From NCBI GenBank assembly GCA_028695135.1, contig JAQVJM010000007.1:1-34674 (forward strand): a DNA stretch of 34,674 nt, given 5' to 3'. Each line of letters starts with the position of its first letter. Within the stretch, counting starts at the first letter, position 1. This DNA comes from Candidatus Moraniibacteriota bacterium. Lineage in GTDB: Bacteria > Patescibacteriota > Minisyncoccia > Moranbacterales > UBA9337. Position numbers and translations under genes: made by a program. The notes beneath the pieces are model-generated. The model was not told where the DNA came from. It did no database searches and saw only the letters and a program-made list of their open reading frames with translations. Below are positions 13,073 through 29,655 of the stretch, piece by piece.

Positions 13073-13101
13073 TTGACTTTTGAGCGCTTTTCTGCTATGT
13101 T
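13073..13101 (+). promoter_or_regulatory. sigma70 promoter for the MMPL/LolA-like/beta-barrel operon
   Basis: TTGACT (13073-13078), 17-nt spacer, TGC-TATGTT (13096-13101). Confidence 0.65.
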
Positions 13102-13181: not shown

Positions 13182-15926
13182 ATGAGCAGGAAAATAAGCT
13201 TCACGGTGTTTGCGGTTATTTTTATGGCCGCGATTTCCGTCTGGAGCTCCTTGCTCTGGACGCAGACGATATCTCTTATCGATCATTCGATCAGGGATGA
13301 AAATAACGAAATGGTTCTGGGAGAGAAAGCGGCTCTCGAGTCGCCGATCAATCACAGCAATCCTCTCGTAATCAATGTCAAGATGCGAAACATAAGCAAA
13401 AAAAACTTGCTTGCTGTTATAAATGTCAGCGAAAGACTCAAGAGGTTTTACGCCGACAGAGGCATCGAGATCGATGTGGCAAGTCTTGCTACTATTACAG
13501 ATTACAAAGGAGAAACACTTGACAAATTCATAAGCATTTCCAAAATCACCGATCCGGATTTCTATCCGCTCAAGTGGTATGAGGAAAACGCCGACAGGCT
13601 CACTCTCAGAAATATTTTCTTGGGAAAAGTCGAGGATTATTTTTATACCTCGATCATTATTTTCCCCGAGCAAGGCGCGGATGAAATGGAGATCGCCCGG
13701 ACATTTCTGCTTTTCAAAGCGGGATGGAGCGATTACAAATTCGACTGGCTGAAAAATGTTTCTAGTTGGAACTGGGAGAATCTTAAGCGCTATTTTGCAC
13801 TTAATTTTAATCCCGAAGTCGAGCAGGAGAGATCCATAAATCTTTTTGAAATCGAGGATAAGTCCGGCAAAACTGTTTTAGTCAGAAGCAATATTTATCT
13901 CCAGCCATACGGCTGGACATTCCATCGCCTGGAAATCGACGCGATGGCGAGAATCGGCTCTTACGCCTCTCTCGGGCTTGCGTTTCTGGCACTGGCAGTT
14001 TTTTCTCTGGCGGCTCTGGGTACTTGGCGTAAGGTTATTGCCTCTATGGCGATAATCGTGCTGGCGTTCGTTTATTCCAAGGGAAGCATCGGGATCATCA
14101 ACCAGTTTATAATTCTGGTCAATTCCTATGCTTCAAATATCGGCTGGCTCGATTGGCTGGCAAACAGCTTTTTCCAGCACTCCTATGAGGACGTGTTTAC
14201 GATCGAAGCTTATTTTGCCATCCTGGTGTCGGGAATTTCTTTTCCTTGGCACTATATGAGAAAGTTCGGCCGGGTGCGCGAGGCTTATCCGAGCTCCGCG
14301 CATTATTGGAGCTCATGGGAAAAAGCCAGAGAAAAAGTCAGGATTATCGCGCTTATCAAAAATATCGCGGTGTTTGACTTTCTGCTTTCGCTTTCGGTCG
14401 CCAATTATTACGGCGCGAGGGCGATGTGGCAGGTCGGCCTGGTTTCCGCAGTTGGTGTTTTGTCGGCTTGGTTTCTTGCCCATTATTCGCTTCCGATTTT
14501 CTATTACTTGATCGGAGGCGTATCCGACAGCCGTAAGATTTCTCAGGGAAAGATGCACGCGCATCTGGAGAATCTTTTGGGCATTATTGTCGGGCGCTTG
14601 ATTTCCGGTTGGGTTTCAAAGAAAATTAGCGCCCCGATTTCAATCGGAGTTGTAATTTCTATGACAGCACTGTCGATGGTTCTGAGTCCGTTCTTTTTAA
14701 AGACGGACAATGACCTGAAGCAGTTTCTTAAAAGAGCTCCTTCAGAGCAGATCTATGACGATATGAACGGGCCCGGAGGAACGGGCGTGGCCTTATTCAG
14801 TCCCTTCTTTTCAATCGATCTTTATGACGCCAAAGCGCTGGATCAATTGAGGATTTATCTTGAGAGAGCGGGCGAAAAAAGCCGGATGGCTTATTCTCCG
14901 CTTTATTTTTTTCTCGAGGTGCTCAAGGAGGATTACGGATATGGCGGAGGCTCCATCAAAGATAAGATCTTAAAGGAAGCCGAGCTCAATCTTAAAGATT
15001 ACGGGCTTGAATTTTCCGATGAATCTTTGTCTCAAGAGGCGAGAGAGATAATGAAGTCCGTCTGGGGAAGCATCCTGGATGAGGATGACGGACTTCTCAG
15101 GCACCTTGTCCATTTTCCCGAAGGATCCGGTCAGGGATACGCAATAGCGCTGGTAACCAGCGCCGATAGTAGCACTCGCAATCTGACGGAACTGAGAGAC
15201 GGTGTTTTGGTCGGCTATGCCCAAGAATTCCATAAATTCAAGGTCGTTATGGCTGATAAAGTTTCTCAGTATCTGGAAATTGACCGGATTATTTCCAGCG
15301 GAAGGTGGATTTATAACATTCTTTCCCAGCTGGCGATTGCAGTTTTTTGCTTAGCCTATTTTTACTGGCGAAACAAAAAAAGCGCGCCGGCTAGATGGAG
15401 GATGTCCGCCAGCCGTTCGGGATTACTGGTGGCGGTTCCGTTTATCTGGGCTACCGCCGTTATGTATATCCTTATAATGGTGATTGGCATGCCGCTCGAT
15501 ATCGCTTCGGCTTCAATAGGAGCCATGGCGGTTGCGATTGCGGTGGATTTTCCCTTGTTCGTGGTCGACTTCTTCAGAAGAATAATTTCCCGGAAGGAAA
15601 ATATTTCAAAAGAAGATGTTTTCCTCTCCGTTATAGAAGATGTCGAAACCAAAAACGCTGTAATCGATGTCGTAGTCGATTACATGGGAAATGCTATCCT
15701 GTTTGCTTTTATGATGGCGACCCCCGTTGAAGCGGTCCGTCGGGTAGGCATCTTAGAGGAATGGGTGCTTCTTAACTGCATCATTGCCACCGTGTTTTTC
15801 ACTTTGCCGATGATGCGCTGGACCATAGTTGGCAAAAGCGAAACCCATATTTTCCGCGAGTTGTTCGCTTATATGAGGAACGGAAAAAAATATGGGGAGA
15901 TAGCAAAAGCGATCAGCGCTCCGTAG
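13182..15926 (+). CDS. MMPL/RND superfamily exporter (HpnN-like)
   Basis: 914 aa, two TM clusters separated by large soluble loops; MPLDIASASIGAMAVAIAVDFPLFVVDFFRR is typical of RND TM4-like helices. Confidence 0.8.
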   Translation: MSRKISFTVFAVIFMAAISVWSSLLWTQTISLIDHSIRDENNEMVLGEKAALESPINHSNPLVINVKMRNISKKNLLAVINVSERLKRFYADRGIEIDVASLATITDYKGETLDKFISISKITDPDFYPLKWYEENADRLTLRNIFLGKVEDYFYTSIIIFPEQGADEMEIARTFLLFKAGWSDYKFDWLKNVSSWNWENLKRYFALNFNPEVEQERSINLFEIEDKSGKTVLVRSNIYLQPYGWTFHRLEIDAMARIGSYASLGLAFLALAVFSLAALGTWRKVIASMAIIVLAFVYSKGSIGIINQFIILVNSYASNIGWLDWLANSFFQHSYEDVFTIEAYFAILVSGISFPWHYMRKFGRVREAYPSSAHYWSSWEKAREKVRIIALIKNIAVFDFLLSLSVANYYGARAMWQVGLVSAVGVLSAWFLAHYSLPIFYYLIGGVSDSRKISQGKMHAHLENLLGIIVGRLISGWVSKKISAPISIGVVISMTALSMVLSPFFLKTDNDLKQFLKRAPSEQIYDDMNGPGGTGVALFSPFFSIDLYDAKALDQLRIYLERAGEKSRMAYSPLYFFLEVLKEDYGYGGGSIKDKILKEAELNLKDYGLEFSDESLSQEAREIMKSVWGSILDEDDGLLRHLVHFPEGSGQGYAIALVTSADSSTRNLTELRDGVLVGYAQEFHKFKVVMADKVSQYLEIDRIISSGRWIYNILSQLAIAVFCLAYFYWRNKKSAPARWRMSASRSGLLVAVPFIWATAVMYILIMVIGMPLDIASASIGAMAVAIAVDFPLFVVDFFRRIISRKENISKEDVFLSVIEDVETKNAVIDVVVDYMGNAILFAFMMATPVEAVRRVGILEEWVLLNCIIATVFFTLPMMRWTIVGKSETHIFRELFAYMRNGKKYGEIAKAISAP

Positions 15927-15941
15927 AGACTACGGAGCGCT
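15915..15941. other. Perfect 12-bp hairpin overlapping the exporter stop codon
   Basis: agcgctccgtag-aga-ctacggagcgct; no T run follows, likely intra-operon stabiliser. Confidence 0.6.
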
Positions 15942-15962
15942 TCAAAAAAAAGGAGAGGAAAA

Positions 15963-16781
15963 ATGGAAAGCGAACTCAAATTCAAACTGGGAATAATAGT
16001 TCTCCAGATAATTTTTCTGGTCTTTATTTTTTTCTTCGCCATCCCTTCGGACGGCGCAGAAATTACCGCCAAGGAGACAATGGCGAAAGCCTGGTCCGAT
16101 GCTTATCCTGCAAGTCTACAAACCGAATTCATTTTCGGCAAAGAGGCGGAAGGGGAGAAACGTGACTTTGGCGCCTGGACGGATCTGCACTCCGGCAAAG
16201 CTGAGGTTTTTATCGGATCTTATAATGATGCCAAAGGGGTTTTTTCGGGACGCACCGGAGGGACTTTGTTTGTTCCGGCCGATGATCATTTCGGCTACAA
16301 AGTCTATGTTTCTCGCGAGACCGGACGACGTGCCAACGTGAAAGAAAAAGCCGGATCATTTGATGCGCCGGCTAATGGGACTCAACTTAATTATTTCGAT
16401 GTTGTCCGGAGCCTTCTCCCCGAAGATCCGGAAAAATTCGAATTTCTCTTCGTATTGGGAGAAGGCGCCGACTATCTGGTCAGAGCCGAACCCAAAAATC
16501 CCGTTGAAGGCGACTACGCCTTCAGGATTTTTTCCCTTAAAAAAATGAGCGATGGGAAATTGGTAATTACCAAAATTTTCCATTATTTAGAAGGGAATAA
16601 GCTTTCAAAAACCATCGAAAATAGCCAATGGGATTTGGCAGATGGAATTTGGAGGTCGAGAGAGCTTCTTATTAAAACCGATAATGAATCCACACGGATA
16701 GTTATCGAAAAAAGGGAATTCAATCAAAAATTCGGCGACCTTTCCGAGAAAGATCTCAAGGAAGGCCGGCCGGCGAGATAA
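15963..16781 (+). CDS. Outer membrane lipoprotein-sorting (LolA-like) protein
   Basis: N-terminal TM/signal; WTDLHSGKAEVFIGSYND...DYAFRIFSLKKMSDGKLVITKIFHYLEGNKLSKTIEN, beta-rich LolA/LolB-like pattern; sits between RND exporter and beta-barrel candidate. Confidence 0.65.
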   Translation: MESELKFKLGIIVLQIIFLVFIFFFAIPSDGAEITAKETMAKAWSDAYPASLQTEFIFGKEAEGEKRDFGAWTDLHSGKAEVFIGSYNDAKGVFSGRTGGTLFVPADDHFGYKVYVSRETGRRANVKEKAGSFDAPANGTQLNYFDVVRSLLPEDPEKFEFLFVLGEGADYLVRAEPKNPVEGDYAFRIFSLKKMSDGKLVITKIFHYLEGNKLSKTIENSQWDLADGIWRSRELLIKTDNESTRIVIEKREFNQKFGDLSEKDLKEGRPAR

Positions 16782-16791
16782 GGAGAGGAGA

Positions 16792-18033
16792 ATGAAGATG
16801 AAAAAATTTCTTCTGATAATCGTGTTGCTTCTGCCTCTCGCTTCCTTGGTTTTTGCCGAGGAGAGCGAGGAGGAGGCGACTGATTCCGGTTTATATTTCT
16901 CCGGCGACGTATGGTCCAATGCGGACTATTATTTTTCCGGGGAAGGCGAGTTTAATGTCGGAGCCTTTCTTTCTCTCGAAAAAGAACTTTCTTCCGAATG
17001 GACCGGAGCTGTTTCGGTCCAGACGGGAGCGGGTTCAATTGAGAGAAACGGCGCAGATATATTTACCCGAGACGGGGAGCGTCCGATCGTTTCTTTGCGC
17101 GAGGCCTATATCAGTTCCGAATCATGGAGGATCGGCAAACAGGTGCTTGCCGATGAGATGAGCGTTAAATTTGACTTTGTCTCGTTTAATCTCCTCGAGA
17201 CGCGGGATCTGAGCCGGCCATTTTCATCATTGGATTCCGATCGCCTTCTGGGAAACTGGGGGGTGGCCAAATCCTTTTTTGACGGAAGGCTCAAGGTTAT
17301 AGCGAGCCTCTCGGATCCGCCGACGATCGCTACGGACGATGATGATCCGTGGACGAGGGAATTGCCTCAGGGCTTCTCTTACGGAGAAATCCGGTCTGAG
17401 GCCGAGTATTCTGTCGGCGCGCGCTGGGGAGATGACATCGGAAATGCAAAGTATGATGTCTATATCCAGCACGGCGCGGGAAGCTCTCTGGTTGACGTTG
17501 AAGCCAGTCCGGAAGGCGAAGTCCGGCCAATTGTTGCCCAGCAGACAGCGGTGAGTGGAATGGTCCAAAAGCCTTTGGGCGAATGGAATCTCCGCTTGGG
17601 ATCGGCCGGATATTTCCAGTCAGGCTATAGCGACTTCGTTGTCGCCGTAGCGGAGCTGGAAAGGTTCTGGGAGTTTGACAACGGAAGCGTTTTCTTCTTT
17701 GACTTCGGCCTAGCCGATACCTGGGAGACTCAGTCCGATGATGATATGCCGGAGCTGGATCTCCGCCGGATCTATGAAGGCGGGACGATCTTGGCGGCTG
17801 CCGAGTATTCCTTCGACCATTCCGCGCTGAAGCTCAAAGGGGCTTACAACGTTAAGGACGAGGGACTTTATTTCTCGGCCGAGTTTTCCTGGGCCGTAAC
17901 TGACTCTGTCGATCTATCCCTGAAATATGAAGCGATTGATGGAGAAGCCAGTAAGGCCAGTCCCGCGGATAATGCTTGGTCGCAATATTCCGATTGCGAC
18001 AGAATTGTTGCGGGGCTTACGTTTTATTTCTAA
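16792..18033 (+). CDS. Porin-like outer membrane beta-barrel protein
   Basis: Signal peptide MKMKKFLLIIVLLLPLASLVFAEES; alternating amphipathic strands; C-terminus DRIVAGLTFYF ends in Phe, as in BAM-targeted barrels. Confidence 0.75.
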   Translation: MKMKKFLLIIVLLLPLASLVFAEESEEEATDSGLYFSGDVWSNADYYFSGEGEFNVGAFLSLEKELSSEWTGAVSVQTGAGSIERNGADIFTRDGERPIVSLREAYISSESWRIGKQVLADEMSVKFDFVSFNLLETRDLSRPFSSLDSDRLLGNWGVAKSFFDGRLKVIASLSDPPTIATDDDDPWTRELPQGFSYGEIRSEAEYSVGARWGDDIGNAKYDVYIQHGAGSSLVDVEASPEGEVRPIVAQQTAVSGMVQKPLGEWNLRLGSAGYFQSGYSDFVVAVAELERFWEFDNGSVFFFDFGLADTWETQSDDDMPELDLRRIYEGGTILAAAEYSFDHSALKLKGAYNVKDEGLYFSAEFSWAVTDSVDLSLKYEAIDGEASKASPADNAWSQYSDCDRIVAGLTFYF

Positions 18034-18061: not shown

Positions 18062-18098
18062 AAAGGGGTTTGGCAAAAATTTGCTAAACCCCTTTTTT
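18062..18098 (+). terminator. Rho-independent terminator closing the envelope operon
   Basis: aaaggggttt...aaacccctttttttatttcc. Confidence 0.85.
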
Positions 18099-18145
18099 TA
18101 TTTCCAATCCGATATCTGAATAAATTTTGTTTTCCGAAAAACAAA

Positions 18146-18250
18146 GCGTCCAAACTATCCACGTGCGACAAAACTGACACTATTTTTTTTCCAAGGATTT
18201 ATCCGGAGTGTCCAAACTGTCCACGTGCGATAAAAAAAGACACTATTTTT
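18146..18250. repeat. Pair of about 42-nt direct repeats offset by 62 bp
   Basis: gcgtccaaactatccacgtgcgacaaaactgacactattttt (18146) and gtgtccaaactgtccacgtgcgataaaaaaagacactattttt (18208). Confidence 0.75.
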
Positions 18251-18268
18251 AAAAAATTTAAACATACT

Positions 18269-18294
18269 TTTGAACATACCATGGTATGTTCAAA
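18269..18294. other. 26-nt perfect palindrome overlapping the mpg stop codon
   Basis: tttgaacataccatggtatgttcaaa. Confidence 0.7.
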
Positions 18295-19044: not shown

Positions 19045-19854
19045 TTATTTAACTTTAACTTTGTATTTTACCCCGGTCAGAGCGCCTGGAATAACAACTC
19101 TTCCGTCGTCATCAGTCTGCATCGTTCCGATCAATGCTCGTTGCCCGCCTACATAGGCATAGAGCTCAACGGTCGTTTCTTCATCAATTCTTTCCGCATC
19201 GTTATTTAGAAGCGTCATGTCTAAGACAAAAGGCATATCTGGAGTAGCGTCTCCGGTCTTGTATTTGAATTTGTATTTTCCAGGGGGGACATCTTTTACT
19301 CTTAGTATCTTGTCCGTATCGGTTCTCGTATAAAGAGCCCTGAACCATTTGCTGTCGTCTATCTTTGCGTTAATCTTAATTCGGTATTTACCATCTTTTT
19401 GGCTTAAGCTAGCATTGTCTTTTACGTCTAATTCATAAACAATATCCGGCACCATGACGGCCATTTCCAGCCATCCTTCTTCATCCGTTTCCAGCGTTCC
19501 GACAAAAGTTTTCGTACCATTCATGTGCATATATATATCAACATCGGTCTTTTCTCTTATTCTTTTTCCATCTTCGTCAAGCATCCTGAACTTTCCCGCA
19601 ACTATTTGATTGTCCTCGATGTCTTTGTCCCTTATCTCAATTTTGTATTTACCGGGAATGACATTTTTTATTTCTAGGACTCCATTATCGTCAGTTTTGA
19701 CATAGAGAGCCCTGAACCAATCTCCGCCTTGCCTTGCGAAAATTTTGATTTTTACCTCATCGGCATTTGCCCCGGATAGAGCAAGGGCTGAAGCGCCGGT
19801 AAGCGACAATGCGACGGCCGCTATAAACGCCATGATTATTCTTGTTTTTTTCAT
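19045..19854 (-). CDS. Secreted protein with an internally duplicated beta-sandwich-like unit
   Basis: Signal peptide MKKTRIIMAFIAAVALSLTGASALA; duplicated blocks WFRALYVKTDDNGVLEIKNVIPGKYKIEI / WFRALYTRTDTDKILRVKDVPPGKYKFKY and FVGTLETDEEGWLEM / LIGTMQTDDDGRVVI. Confidence 0.75.
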   Translation of the reverse strand: MKKTRIIMAFIAAVALSLTGASALALSGANADEVKIKIFARQGGDWFRALYVKTDDNGVLEIKNVIPGKYKIEIRDKDIEDNQIVAGKFRMLDEDGKRIREKTDVDIYMHMNGTKTFVGTLETDEEGWLEMAVMVPDIVYELDVKDNASLSQKDGKYRIKINAKIDDSKWFRALYTRTDTDKILRVKDVPPGKYKFKYKTGDATPDMPFVLDMTLLNNDAERIDEETTVELYAYVGGQRALIGTMQTDDDGRVVIPGALTGVKYKVKVK

Positions 19855-20000
19855 TTTTATTTTTTTGTGCCGCCGTTTTTAGCGTGCGACATGTTAGTTA
19901 ATTATTTGTAAGTATTTTACAACAAAATGATCAAAAAAACCATGGAATTATCCACAGGTTCATTTTTTTCAATATTATGAATGGTAAGATATGAAAAATA

Positions 20001-20720
20001 TCATCCACTGACCCAGATAGAATCGAAAAGCAACTGAAAAATATCTTTTATATCTTCATTTTCTATGTAAAATCCCGTATTTTCTTTGATAACTATCAGG
20101 CTGTCGGCGATTATTACAGCCATTTCCGAAGACATATCGGCGCTTAGGATCTTTTGGTTTACATATTTTAAGGAAGACCTATTTGCAAAATTTCCGAAAT
20201 ATATTTCTCTGATTCTTATATTTCTCAGCCTGTTGTTTATTTTTATGTATTCCTTCTTAAGATTTAAAGGATTTCTTCCGATAAAAATTACTTTAATTTC
20301 TTTGGAAAGGGTGTTGGAAAAGTTTTCTAAAAGACCTTTGCGGCTTTTATGGCCCTTATAAATTTTTATTTTGCATTTATTTTTTACGGAATATTTGGTC
20401 TGAAGCATCGATATTATCCTTAAAAATTCTCTCTCTTGTTCCTCGGCCTCTCTTCTTTTTATCTTAAGCATGCCCAAAAGCTCTTCTGGAGAGCTGGCGG
20501 TAAAATATTTTTTGTTTTTTTCCTTTGTCTGGGATACCAATTTTTTCTTTTCCAGGCCCCTTAAGACACGATAAACAGTCGGACGGCTGATGGACGCTTT
20601 CTTGGCTATTTCGTAAGCCGTGGCTTTTGTCAGTTCGAGGGATATGAGATAAATTTTTGCTTCTCTTTCGGTGAGTCCCAGCTTTCTTAATTCAAATGGA
20701 AGAATGTCAAAATTATTCAT
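20001..20720 (-). CDS. TrmB family transcriptional regulator
   Basis: LRKLGLTEREAKIYLISLELTKATAYEIAKKASISRPTVYRVLRGLEKKKLVSQ helix-turn-helix plus coiled/C-terminal domain. Confidence 0.85.
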   Translation of the reverse strand: MNNFDILPFELRKLGLTEREAKIYLISLELTKATAYEIAKKASISRPTVYRVLRGLEKKKLVSQTKEKNKKYFTASSPEELLGMLKIKRREAEEQEREFLRIISMLQTKYSVKNKCKIKIYKGHKSRKGLLENFSNTLSKEIKVIFIGRNPLNLKKEYIKINNRLRNIRIREIYFGNFANRSSLKYVNQKILSADMSSEMAVIIADSLIVIKENTGFYIENEDIKDIFQLLFDSIWVSG

Positions 20721-28613: not shown

Positions 28614-28739
28614 ATGAACACATTAAATGTATTTCTGGATAATTTTTTGAGAAAGACTCTTTGGATATGGCTTCCCTTTTATGCCTTATATCGCCTTACC
28701 AGGGAGATTTTGAAATTTTCCAATGGCGATAAAAAATAA
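28614..28739 (+). CDS. Small 41-aa membrane-associated protein overlapping the next ORF
   Basis: MNTLNVFLDNFLRKTLWIWLPFYALYRLTREILKFSNGDKK; overlaps the downstream start by 17 nt. Confidence 0.5.
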   Translation: MNTLNVFLDNFLRKTLWIWLPFYALYRLTREILKFSNGDKK

Positions 28740-29655
28740 TATCCATCTTTCAAGGATAGTTTATCTTTCAGTTTTTTGTTTCATTATCCTTTTTTCTTTT
28801 TCTGCCGCCGATAACGCCAGTGCGGCTTTGGTGCCATGCGGAAGGACGGCGGATGATCCGGCGACTGCCATCAATGAAACAAATCCTTGCCGGCTTTGCC
28901 ATCTGATAACCGGAATCCACGGAATAATAACCTGGGGAAGGAATATCCTCATAATTGTCGGCATCGCGGCCATAACCATCGGGGGAGTGATGTATATAGT
29001 TTCGGCCGGAAACGAAGAGACGATGGAGACGGCCAAAAATTTCATCAAGCAGTCTCTCTACGGCGTGGCGATAGTCCTGGGAGCCTGGCTCATCGTCAAT
29101 ACTACTATGTGGCTTCTGGCAACCAATGACGATCTGGGAATAGGTGTTGCCGGCTGGGATGAATTCAATTGCTATCCGGATGGCATTGTTCCGCCAACTC
29201 CAACTCCAGCTCCAGCCCCAACTCCAACTCCAACAACGCCTCCTCCCGCAGAACCCATAATGGGAACAGAGCAGGAAGTGAGAGATTTATTTGCTTCTGA
29301 AGGGATATCAATAAACAATCTTCCTTGCGAACCTGGCCAGACAGTGGGATGCACGGATGTGGGAGGGCTTTTGTCGAGTACCATAAATGGAGTGATAGCT
29401 CTCAATGACGCTTGTCCGGAATGCAATATTATTATAACAGGCGGATCAGAAGGCGGGCATGCGCCGGGAGACTATTCTCACGAGACCGGATACAAGGTCG
29501 ACCTCGGGCTTAATTCAACTCTGAATAATTATATAACCACCAATTATGATTTTATCGGAACGCGGAGCGACGGAGCGCGGATGTATGAGGATGACGGTGG
29601 CAATATTTACGCTTTAGAAAGCAATCATTGGGATGTCTGCTATCATTGCTTTTAG
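28723..29655 (+). CDS. VirB2/TrbC-like pilin domain fused through a Pro-rich linker to an M15/DD-peptidase-like domain
   Basis: ILIIVGIAAITIGGVMYIVSAGNEETMETAKNFIKQSLYGVAIVLGAWLIVNTTMWLL; PTPTPAPAPTPTPTTPPP linker; GGHAPGDYSHETGYKVDL...ESNHWDVCYHC. Confidence 0.75.
   Translation: MAIKNNIHLSRIVYLSVFCFIILFSFSAADNASAALVPCGRTADDPATAINETNPCRLCHLITGIHGIITWGRNILIIVGIAAITIGGVMYIVSAGNEETMETAKNFIKQSLYGVAIVLGAWLIVNTTMWLLATNDDLGIGVAGWDEFNCYPDGIVPPTPTPAPAPTPTPTTPPPAEPIMGTEQEVRDLFASEGISINNLPCEPGQTVGCTDVGGLLSSTINGVIALNDACPECNIIITGGSEGGHAPGDYSHETGYKVDLGLNSTLNNYITTNYDFIGTRSDGARMYEDDGGNIYALESNHWDVCYHCF

Follow-up and report, generated by a model that had tools for sequence, protein, structure and literature searches.

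A diderm-type RND, LolA-like and barrel operon, probably acquired long ago, in a Moranbacterales patescibacterium

Among the closest described systems to the locus reported here is AmeABCD of Castellaniella defragrans, which comprises the HAE3 RND protein AmeD, the LolA-superfamily DUF1329 protein AmeB, the DUF1302 protein AmeA and the YCF48-like AmeC; its deletion lowered monoterpene tolerance (PMC6394551). The hopanoid transporter HpnN functions without dedicated partners (PMC6394551). For the aryl polyene clusters of E. coli, an RND transporter and a LolA-like chaperone (ApeL/ApeM/ApeN) have been proposed as a lipid route to the outer membrane (PMC8253772). We analysed a comparable gene set at positions 13182-18033 of contig JAQVJM010000007.1 (assembly GCA_028695135.1) from a Candidatus Moraniibacteriota bacterium. 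The whole contig, 34,674 nucleotides (nt) long, is called the window below. A sequence-only reading of this DNA had described three tightly spaced genes, and these are present, all on the + strand, with gaps of 36 nt (transporter to LolA-like gene) and 10 nt (LolA-like to barrel gene):

13182-15926, + strand: RND-superfamily transporter (HAE3/MMPL/HpnN-like, from profile comparisons), 914 amino acids (aa).
15963-16781, + strand: secreted LolA-like protein (PF17131, 'outer membrane lipoprotein-sorting protein'), 272 aa, with a hydrophobic N-terminal signal region.
16792-18033, + strand: secreted beta-barrel of the DUF1302 kind, 413 aa, with a signal peptide, an LREAY...GKQ motif and the C-terminus IVAGLTFYF.

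We conclude that these genes form a true operon, presumably co-transcribed, which belongs to a patescibacterium of Moranbacterales type. The RND, LolA-like and barrel proteins are maintained as a unit in the genomes that carry them. It is likely that together they form an RND-LolA-DUF1302 trans-envelope transporter for hydrophobic or lipid cargo, acquired horizontally from diderms long ago and maintained in a patescibacterium.

The first gene had been read as an MMPL/HpnN-like exporter, and comparison at the family level agrees. The window protein itself has no significant Pfam match, and its match to TIGR00921 (HAE3; E 6.5e-5) lies under the cut-off of that model. The homologue in G086 (genomes and contigs used for comparison carry the handles G and L) exceeds the Pfam MMPL cut-off. 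A profile of the patescibacterial RND family matches the solved structure of HpnN (6wu0) with E 5e-7, and MmpL4 and MmpL5 more weakly; hhalign aligned the family with three diderm MMPL proteins at 99.9% (E 1.7e-34). Membership of the HpnN family itself was rejected, as the window protein gave no match and its relatives scored 17-24 bits against an NCBIfam cut-off of 752. A simple hydropathy threshold recovered 11 of the expected 12 transmembrane segments, and there are two large extracytoplasmic loops (26-261 and 507-708). Asp789 in transmembrane segment 10 is invariant in all eight patescibacterial RND rows and is found in most diderm rows. The site in transmembrane segment 4 that is acidic in some relatives is occupied by Ser in the patescibacterial rows.

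The LolA-like identity of the second protein also holds. Pfam LolA_like (PF17131) matches it with E 1.6e-6 and 28.4 bits (gathering cut-off 30), and the homologues in G029 (76 bits) and G051 (60 bits) exceed the cut-off. The family profile also finds structures in the PDB: 4z48 (E 3.5e-11), 3bk5 (E 3e-8) and 9tp6. The family aligns with its counterparts in diderm operons at 98.2% (hhalign, E 5.6e-14).

For the third protein, sequence searches of Pfam, NCBIfam and the PDB gave no match, and neither the window barrel nor that of G051 reaches the gathering cut-off of DUF1302 (PF06980) or has any Pfam match. A barrel family profile was built from genes found alongside the RND gene in other carriers. 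By hhalign, this family aligns with the DUF1302 family at 99.1% (E 6.5e-19) over 306 columns, reaching the last residue, and this upholds at the family level the barrel proposed from the C-terminal IVAGLTFYF. In profile-profile comparison the window barrel alone aligns with DUF1302 at 89.6% (E 1.9e-6). The G051 barrel, which was found by the family profile and was not among its building sequences, does so at 98.7% (E 4e-16), including the motif LREAY..GRQ..W. A C-terminal Phe is present in 5/6 members of the family.

An AlphaFold model of the window barrel (six sequences) has a mean pLDDT of 57.5; residues ~200-413 are mostly above 70 and form an up-and-down meander of strands. Foldseek against the PDB returned 34 matches with E <= 0.001, all of them membrane barrels or barrel-derived, with low query-length TM-scores (0.24-0.39). 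They include VhChiP (the best, E 6e-6), OMPLA, MOMP and OmpU. The structure prediction would suit a barrel, in a model that is confident only for that second part. A simple beta-periodicity statistic gave z 2.4 for the window barrel and values close to those of controls for several relatives, and is hence uninformative. Barrel homology is well supported, and the exact fold remains predicted.

Among the 143 related genomes, seven encode the RND protein, in differing genomic contexts; they represent three families and 6 of 78 genera, and the same seven are the carriers among the 132 genomes of the order. One further patescibacterial genome, G390, of another class, also has the RND protein. The classical, TetR-linked RND of G258 does not belong to the patescibacterial group and was not counted among the carriers. 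Barrels of this family occur in 5 of the 7 RND carriers and in none of the 136 other genomes (Fisher p 4.5e-8, for related genomes that are not independent). The window, G001, G029 and G051 share the order RND-LolA-barrel; in G051 the operon is spread over two contigs that overlap at their ends, within the LolA gene. G082 has RND-barrel, and in G065 and G086 the RND gene lies beside other genes. In G001 the RND gene (L012:5447-8091) is in two overlapping frames, which reflects either decay or sequencing error. A search for empty sites yielded none, MPG neighbourhoods not being conserved in the family.

The origin of the operon was considered from trees and from base composition. The RND tree comprised 14 proteins, and its eight patescibacterial members fall on one side of a branch with support 100/100, apart from six others. 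The LolA tree agrees, with a patescibacterial group at 95/92. The trees include three to six outgroup rows only, on long branches, and no donor could be named from them. Among themselves, the patescibacterial RND proteins differ by roughly one change per site or more. The grouping of the patescibacterial RND and LolA proteins to the exclusion of the few sampled diderm relatives makes a recent single transfer unlikely. We read the pattern as one or more old acquisitions from a diderm, followed by spread, diversification and partial loss within the Patescibacteria, a reading that the small outgroup sampling keeps short of proof.

GC content at third codon positions (GC3) is 0.546 for the RND gene, 0.465 for the LolA-like gene and 0.580 for the barrel gene, against 0.437 +/- 0.039 (maximum 0.523) for 24 flanking open reading frames. 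The suggestion that the segment is more GC-rich than its surroundings therefore holds for the first and third genes and not for the LolA-like gene, which lies under the flank maximum. In the window, G001, G051 and G390 the operon has a higher GC3 than its flanks; in G082, G065, G029 and G086 it is not clearly higher. In G390 (L035:6010-12312), a ketoacyl-synthase-III-like gene, the RND gene, a gene for a secreted protein and the barrel gene form a GC-rich island (GC 0.56-0.59 versus 0.41-0.45 for most neighbouring genes) that looks recently acquired. The 283-aa secreted protein of this island was considered as a LolA and is not recognisable as such.

Several observations weigh against an old transporter that was acquired and kept as a whole. 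The barrel tree does not group all of the patescibacterial rows, and given that tree the three genes may not have a single shared history. G065 and G086 lack a barrel of this family, and G065, G082 and G086 have no recognised LolA-like neighbour. The G390 set also has no recognised LolA, and its barrel matches DUF1302 weakly. The AlphaFold model of the window barrel is confident over its second half only. Cargo, direction and location are drawn from relatives only, and what is said of them below is conditional on that analogy.

By analogy with those relatives, the RND protein would use the proton gradient to take a cargo that is hydrophobic or a lipid through the cytoplasmic membrane or out of it, and the LolA-like protein would then carry this cargo outside the membrane in its greasy half-barrel. 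The DUF1302-type barrel would be the port on the far side, with cargo passing through it or into it. Movement could be export or uptake. A host-derived or modified lipid would be a likelier cargo than a lipid made de novo, because the carriers lack a ketoacyl synthase. Since no Omp85 was found, the barrel would have to rely on an unrecognised factor for its placement, fold without help, or be seated in a partner cell's outer membrane.

The sequence-only reading had inferred a diderm gene set, of higher GC, in a patescibacterial host, and had proposed that it was either acquired horizontally or evidence of an unrecognised outer layer. The first three points stand, and acquisition is favoured, but it looks old given the fully supported RND group, the divergence within it and the local match of GC3 in several carriers. 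On the second proposal, the search for BamA/Omp85 bears directly. No Omp85 (PF01103) was identified in the window genome, the other carriers among the 143 relatives or G390, in a search that a very divergent insertase could escape and that did not extend to LptD and lipid A genes. One weak match under the cut-off was seen among the 143 relatives, in a non-carrier, and the same search found Omp85 in 7 of 14 control genomes, Thermotoga included. An ordinary outer membrane is disfavoured by the absence of an Omp85 match from the carriers. The existence of an outer membrane-like layer in these patescibacteria, to which the operon would feed lipid as in diderms, is accordingly one we regard as unlikely. 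It would suit a complete three-part trans-envelope system that has signal peptides and the C-terminal Phe of most barrels and is conserved across three families. However, beyond the Omp85 result, the operon is rare (7/132 in the order) where an envelope layer should be general, and the published view is that Patescibacteria have no outer membrane (PMC12102498).

Diderm-derived genes could also persist as a relic, or travel as a recent passenger, no longer working or mattering in the new host. The patchy distribution of the operon, the broken RND frame of G001 and the incompletely adapted GC3 of the f1 genomes and G390 would fit such an origin. We nevertheless consider it improbable: the long frames are intact in all carriers but G001, gene order and spacing are conserved, the Asp of transmembrane segment 10 is invariant, and divergence is deep without decay.

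The ketoacyl synthase KAS (PF00109) was not identified in any of the seven carriers of the order, nor in most of their relatives. Its absence in carriers is consistent with the described dependence of Patescibacteria on hosts for lipids (PMC13059738). Both facts would suit a barrel that is exported into the outer membrane of a diderm host and assembled there by the host BAM, so that the operon bridges two cells and draws or delivers lipid; the carriers would presumably lack fatty acid synthesis, and they keep a C-terminal signal of the kind read by BAM though they show no BAM of their own. This arrangement is rather improbable, as no host is known for these genomes, the delivery route is purely hypothetical and the lack of KAS is common to most relatives without the operon. 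It and a layer of the cell's own are refinements of the site at which an old, acquired transporter would act as much as they are rivals to it. If they are joined to the acquired transporter, an epibiont without its own outer membrane or barrel insertase would exchange lipids with its host by way of a diderm-type RND-LolA-barrel line that ends in the host outer membrane (or in a hitherto unseen outer layer of its own), a picture that we consider unlikely.

The window is an entire contig of a genome of 911 kb in 37 contigs, with completeness rated 100%. The patescibacterial host that had been considered is confirmed by G001, which belongs to the same family as the window genome: its contig L012 (also L039; JAOUHN010000033.1) comes from a metagenome-assembled genome (MAG) whose record is named Candidatus Moraniibacteriota, a taxon listed by NCBI under Patescibacteria group, Parcubacteria group. 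Genes in the flanks are those usual for a small bacterial genome (ftsA, ftsZ, nrdD, clpB, rplT, infC, smpB, ileS and tmRNA; protein names read from translations). No chimeric join was found at about 13.0 or 18.1 kb, where one would have undone the earlier interpretation, and the operon recurs in the second MAG (L012), again with the SpaA-like gene downstream. An assembly or binning artefact that fused diderm DNA onto a patescibacterial contig is extremely unlikely and, with contamination, was rejected: a GC3 step is seen at each operon border, but independent MAGs of the same order hold homologous operons with shared downstream synteny (a neighbour common to two genera), the patescibacterial proteins resemble one another more than they do diderm proteins, and in G029 and G086, both AT-rich, operon GC3 tracks that of the host.

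A strong Shine-Dalgarno sequence precedes each of the three starts, near-identical for genes 2 and 3 (AAGGAGAGGA). A role for the operon in defence is unsupported, PADLOC having given no match. Other features of the operon and its surroundings are:

13073-13101, + strand: promoter-like TTGACT-17-TATGTT with an extended -10, upstream of the operon; promoter-like matches in the operon region are as many as expected by chance.
15915-15941, no strand assigned: perfect 12-bp hairpin at the junction of the transporter gene and the LolA-like gene, resembling a terminator when read on the - strand.
18062-18095, + strand: hairpin and T run resembling an intrinsic terminator, directly 3' of the barrel gene.
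19045-19854, - strand: secreted SpaA/transthyretin-like protein with two repeats; it co-occurs with the transporter and might belong to its system.

Directly past the operon terminator, at 18145-18250, are two direct-repeat units (29 nt with 90% identity, 18 nt with 89%) that lie 62-63 nt apart; their 26-nt core is unique within the window. A perfect 26-bp palindrome (TTTGAACATACCATGGTATGTTCAAA, 18269-18294) lies between the operon and a DNA glycosylase gene, and is possibly an operator or a bidirectional terminator.

The SpaA-like gene is near the operon in four carriers (window, G001, G082 and G029). The protein is encoded in 18 of the 143 genomes, 6/7 carriers versus 12/136 others (p 1e-5, again for related genomes that are not independent). 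At 19045-20720 it lies beside a TrmB-type regulator, and L013 and L017 also have a TrmB gene close to the one for the SpaA-like protein. A histidine kinase with an N-terminal region of seven transmembrane segments (7TM) is encoded near the operon in G082, G029, G051, G086 and G390. In G051 and G086, from two families, genes for a PlsC-type acyltransferase and a methyltransferase-like protein adjoin the operon; at L016:3272-9600 and L057:260-6789 these and the 7TM kinase adjoin the RND or barrel gene. The acyltransferase and methyltransferase genes, and the ketoacyl-synthase-III-like gene of G390 and Haliovirga, provide a link to lipids. Neither the 7TM kinase nor the PlsC-type acyltransferase is encoded near the operon in the window. 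Beside the RND gene of G065 (L014:8170-11416) are genes for two secreted proteins: one is sialate-esterase-like (SASA) and contains a masked stretch, the other, of 228 aa, ends in IGVVYFIE and might be a small barrel. Elsewhere in the window, a gene at 28723-29655 encodes a secreted protein whose N-terminal half is similar to the type IV secretion pilin PF18895 (26.1 bits, cut-off 26.6) and whose C-terminal half by eye resembles a D,D-peptidase. It would be unusual for a pilin and a peptidase to be fused.

The general view of Patescibacteria is that they have no outer membrane and that many of them take their lipids from other cells by unexplained means. A conserved operon, probably for lipid transport through the envelope and ending in a barrel of outer-membrane type, in genomes where neither Omp85 nor ketoacyl synthase was detected, makes two questions testable: in which layer the barrel sits, and whether it draws in host lipid or exports something.

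The gene combination had been assigned to diderm envelopes, and it does match a diderm operon of MMPL, 'outer membrane lipoprotein-sorting protein' and DUF1302 genes. Prevotella nigrescens (NZ_CP082843.1; Bacteroidota) has these in identical order and close spacing, with proteins of 805/259/435 aa versus 914/272/413 aa in the window, all three homologous by profile comparison. In the Fusobacteriota the set is rearranged to DUF1302-MMPL-LolA in Haliovirga abyssi, with a ketoacyl-synthase-III gene upstream, and Ilyobacter polytropus has LolA, an unannotated hypothetical protein of barrel size and RND. The sets of these three organisms share about 20% identity with the patescibacterial one. Their hosts belong to diderm phyla, unlike the patescibacterial carriers, in which no Omp85 was found. 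A four-gene version, DUF1302-DUF1329-YCF48-MMPL, of the AmeABCD kind, is present on a Pseudomonas plasmid. AmeABCD resembles the window operon in that a single cassette encodes an HAE3 RND protein together with a periplasmic protein of the LolA superfamily and an outer-membrane protein of the DUF1302 family. It differs in having four genes, in the greater length of its proteins (DUF1302, 605 aa; DUF1329, 451 aa) and in its experimental tie to monoterpene tolerance in a diderm; the window operon has no counterpart of the YCF48-like fourth component, AmeC. HpnN (6wu0, 5khn) shares the RND/HAE3 fold and is the best match among solved structures, but the relatives of the window protein score far under the cut-off of its family. 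ApeL/ApeM/ApeN likewise include an RND transporter and a LolA-like protein, with a LolB-like lipoprotein in place of the DUF1302 barrel, and lie within a large biosynthetic cluster. An incomplete literature search found no published account of this gene set in Patescibacteria. The kind of gene set is already known from diderms; its setting, in Patescibacteria with no Omp85 found, is new.

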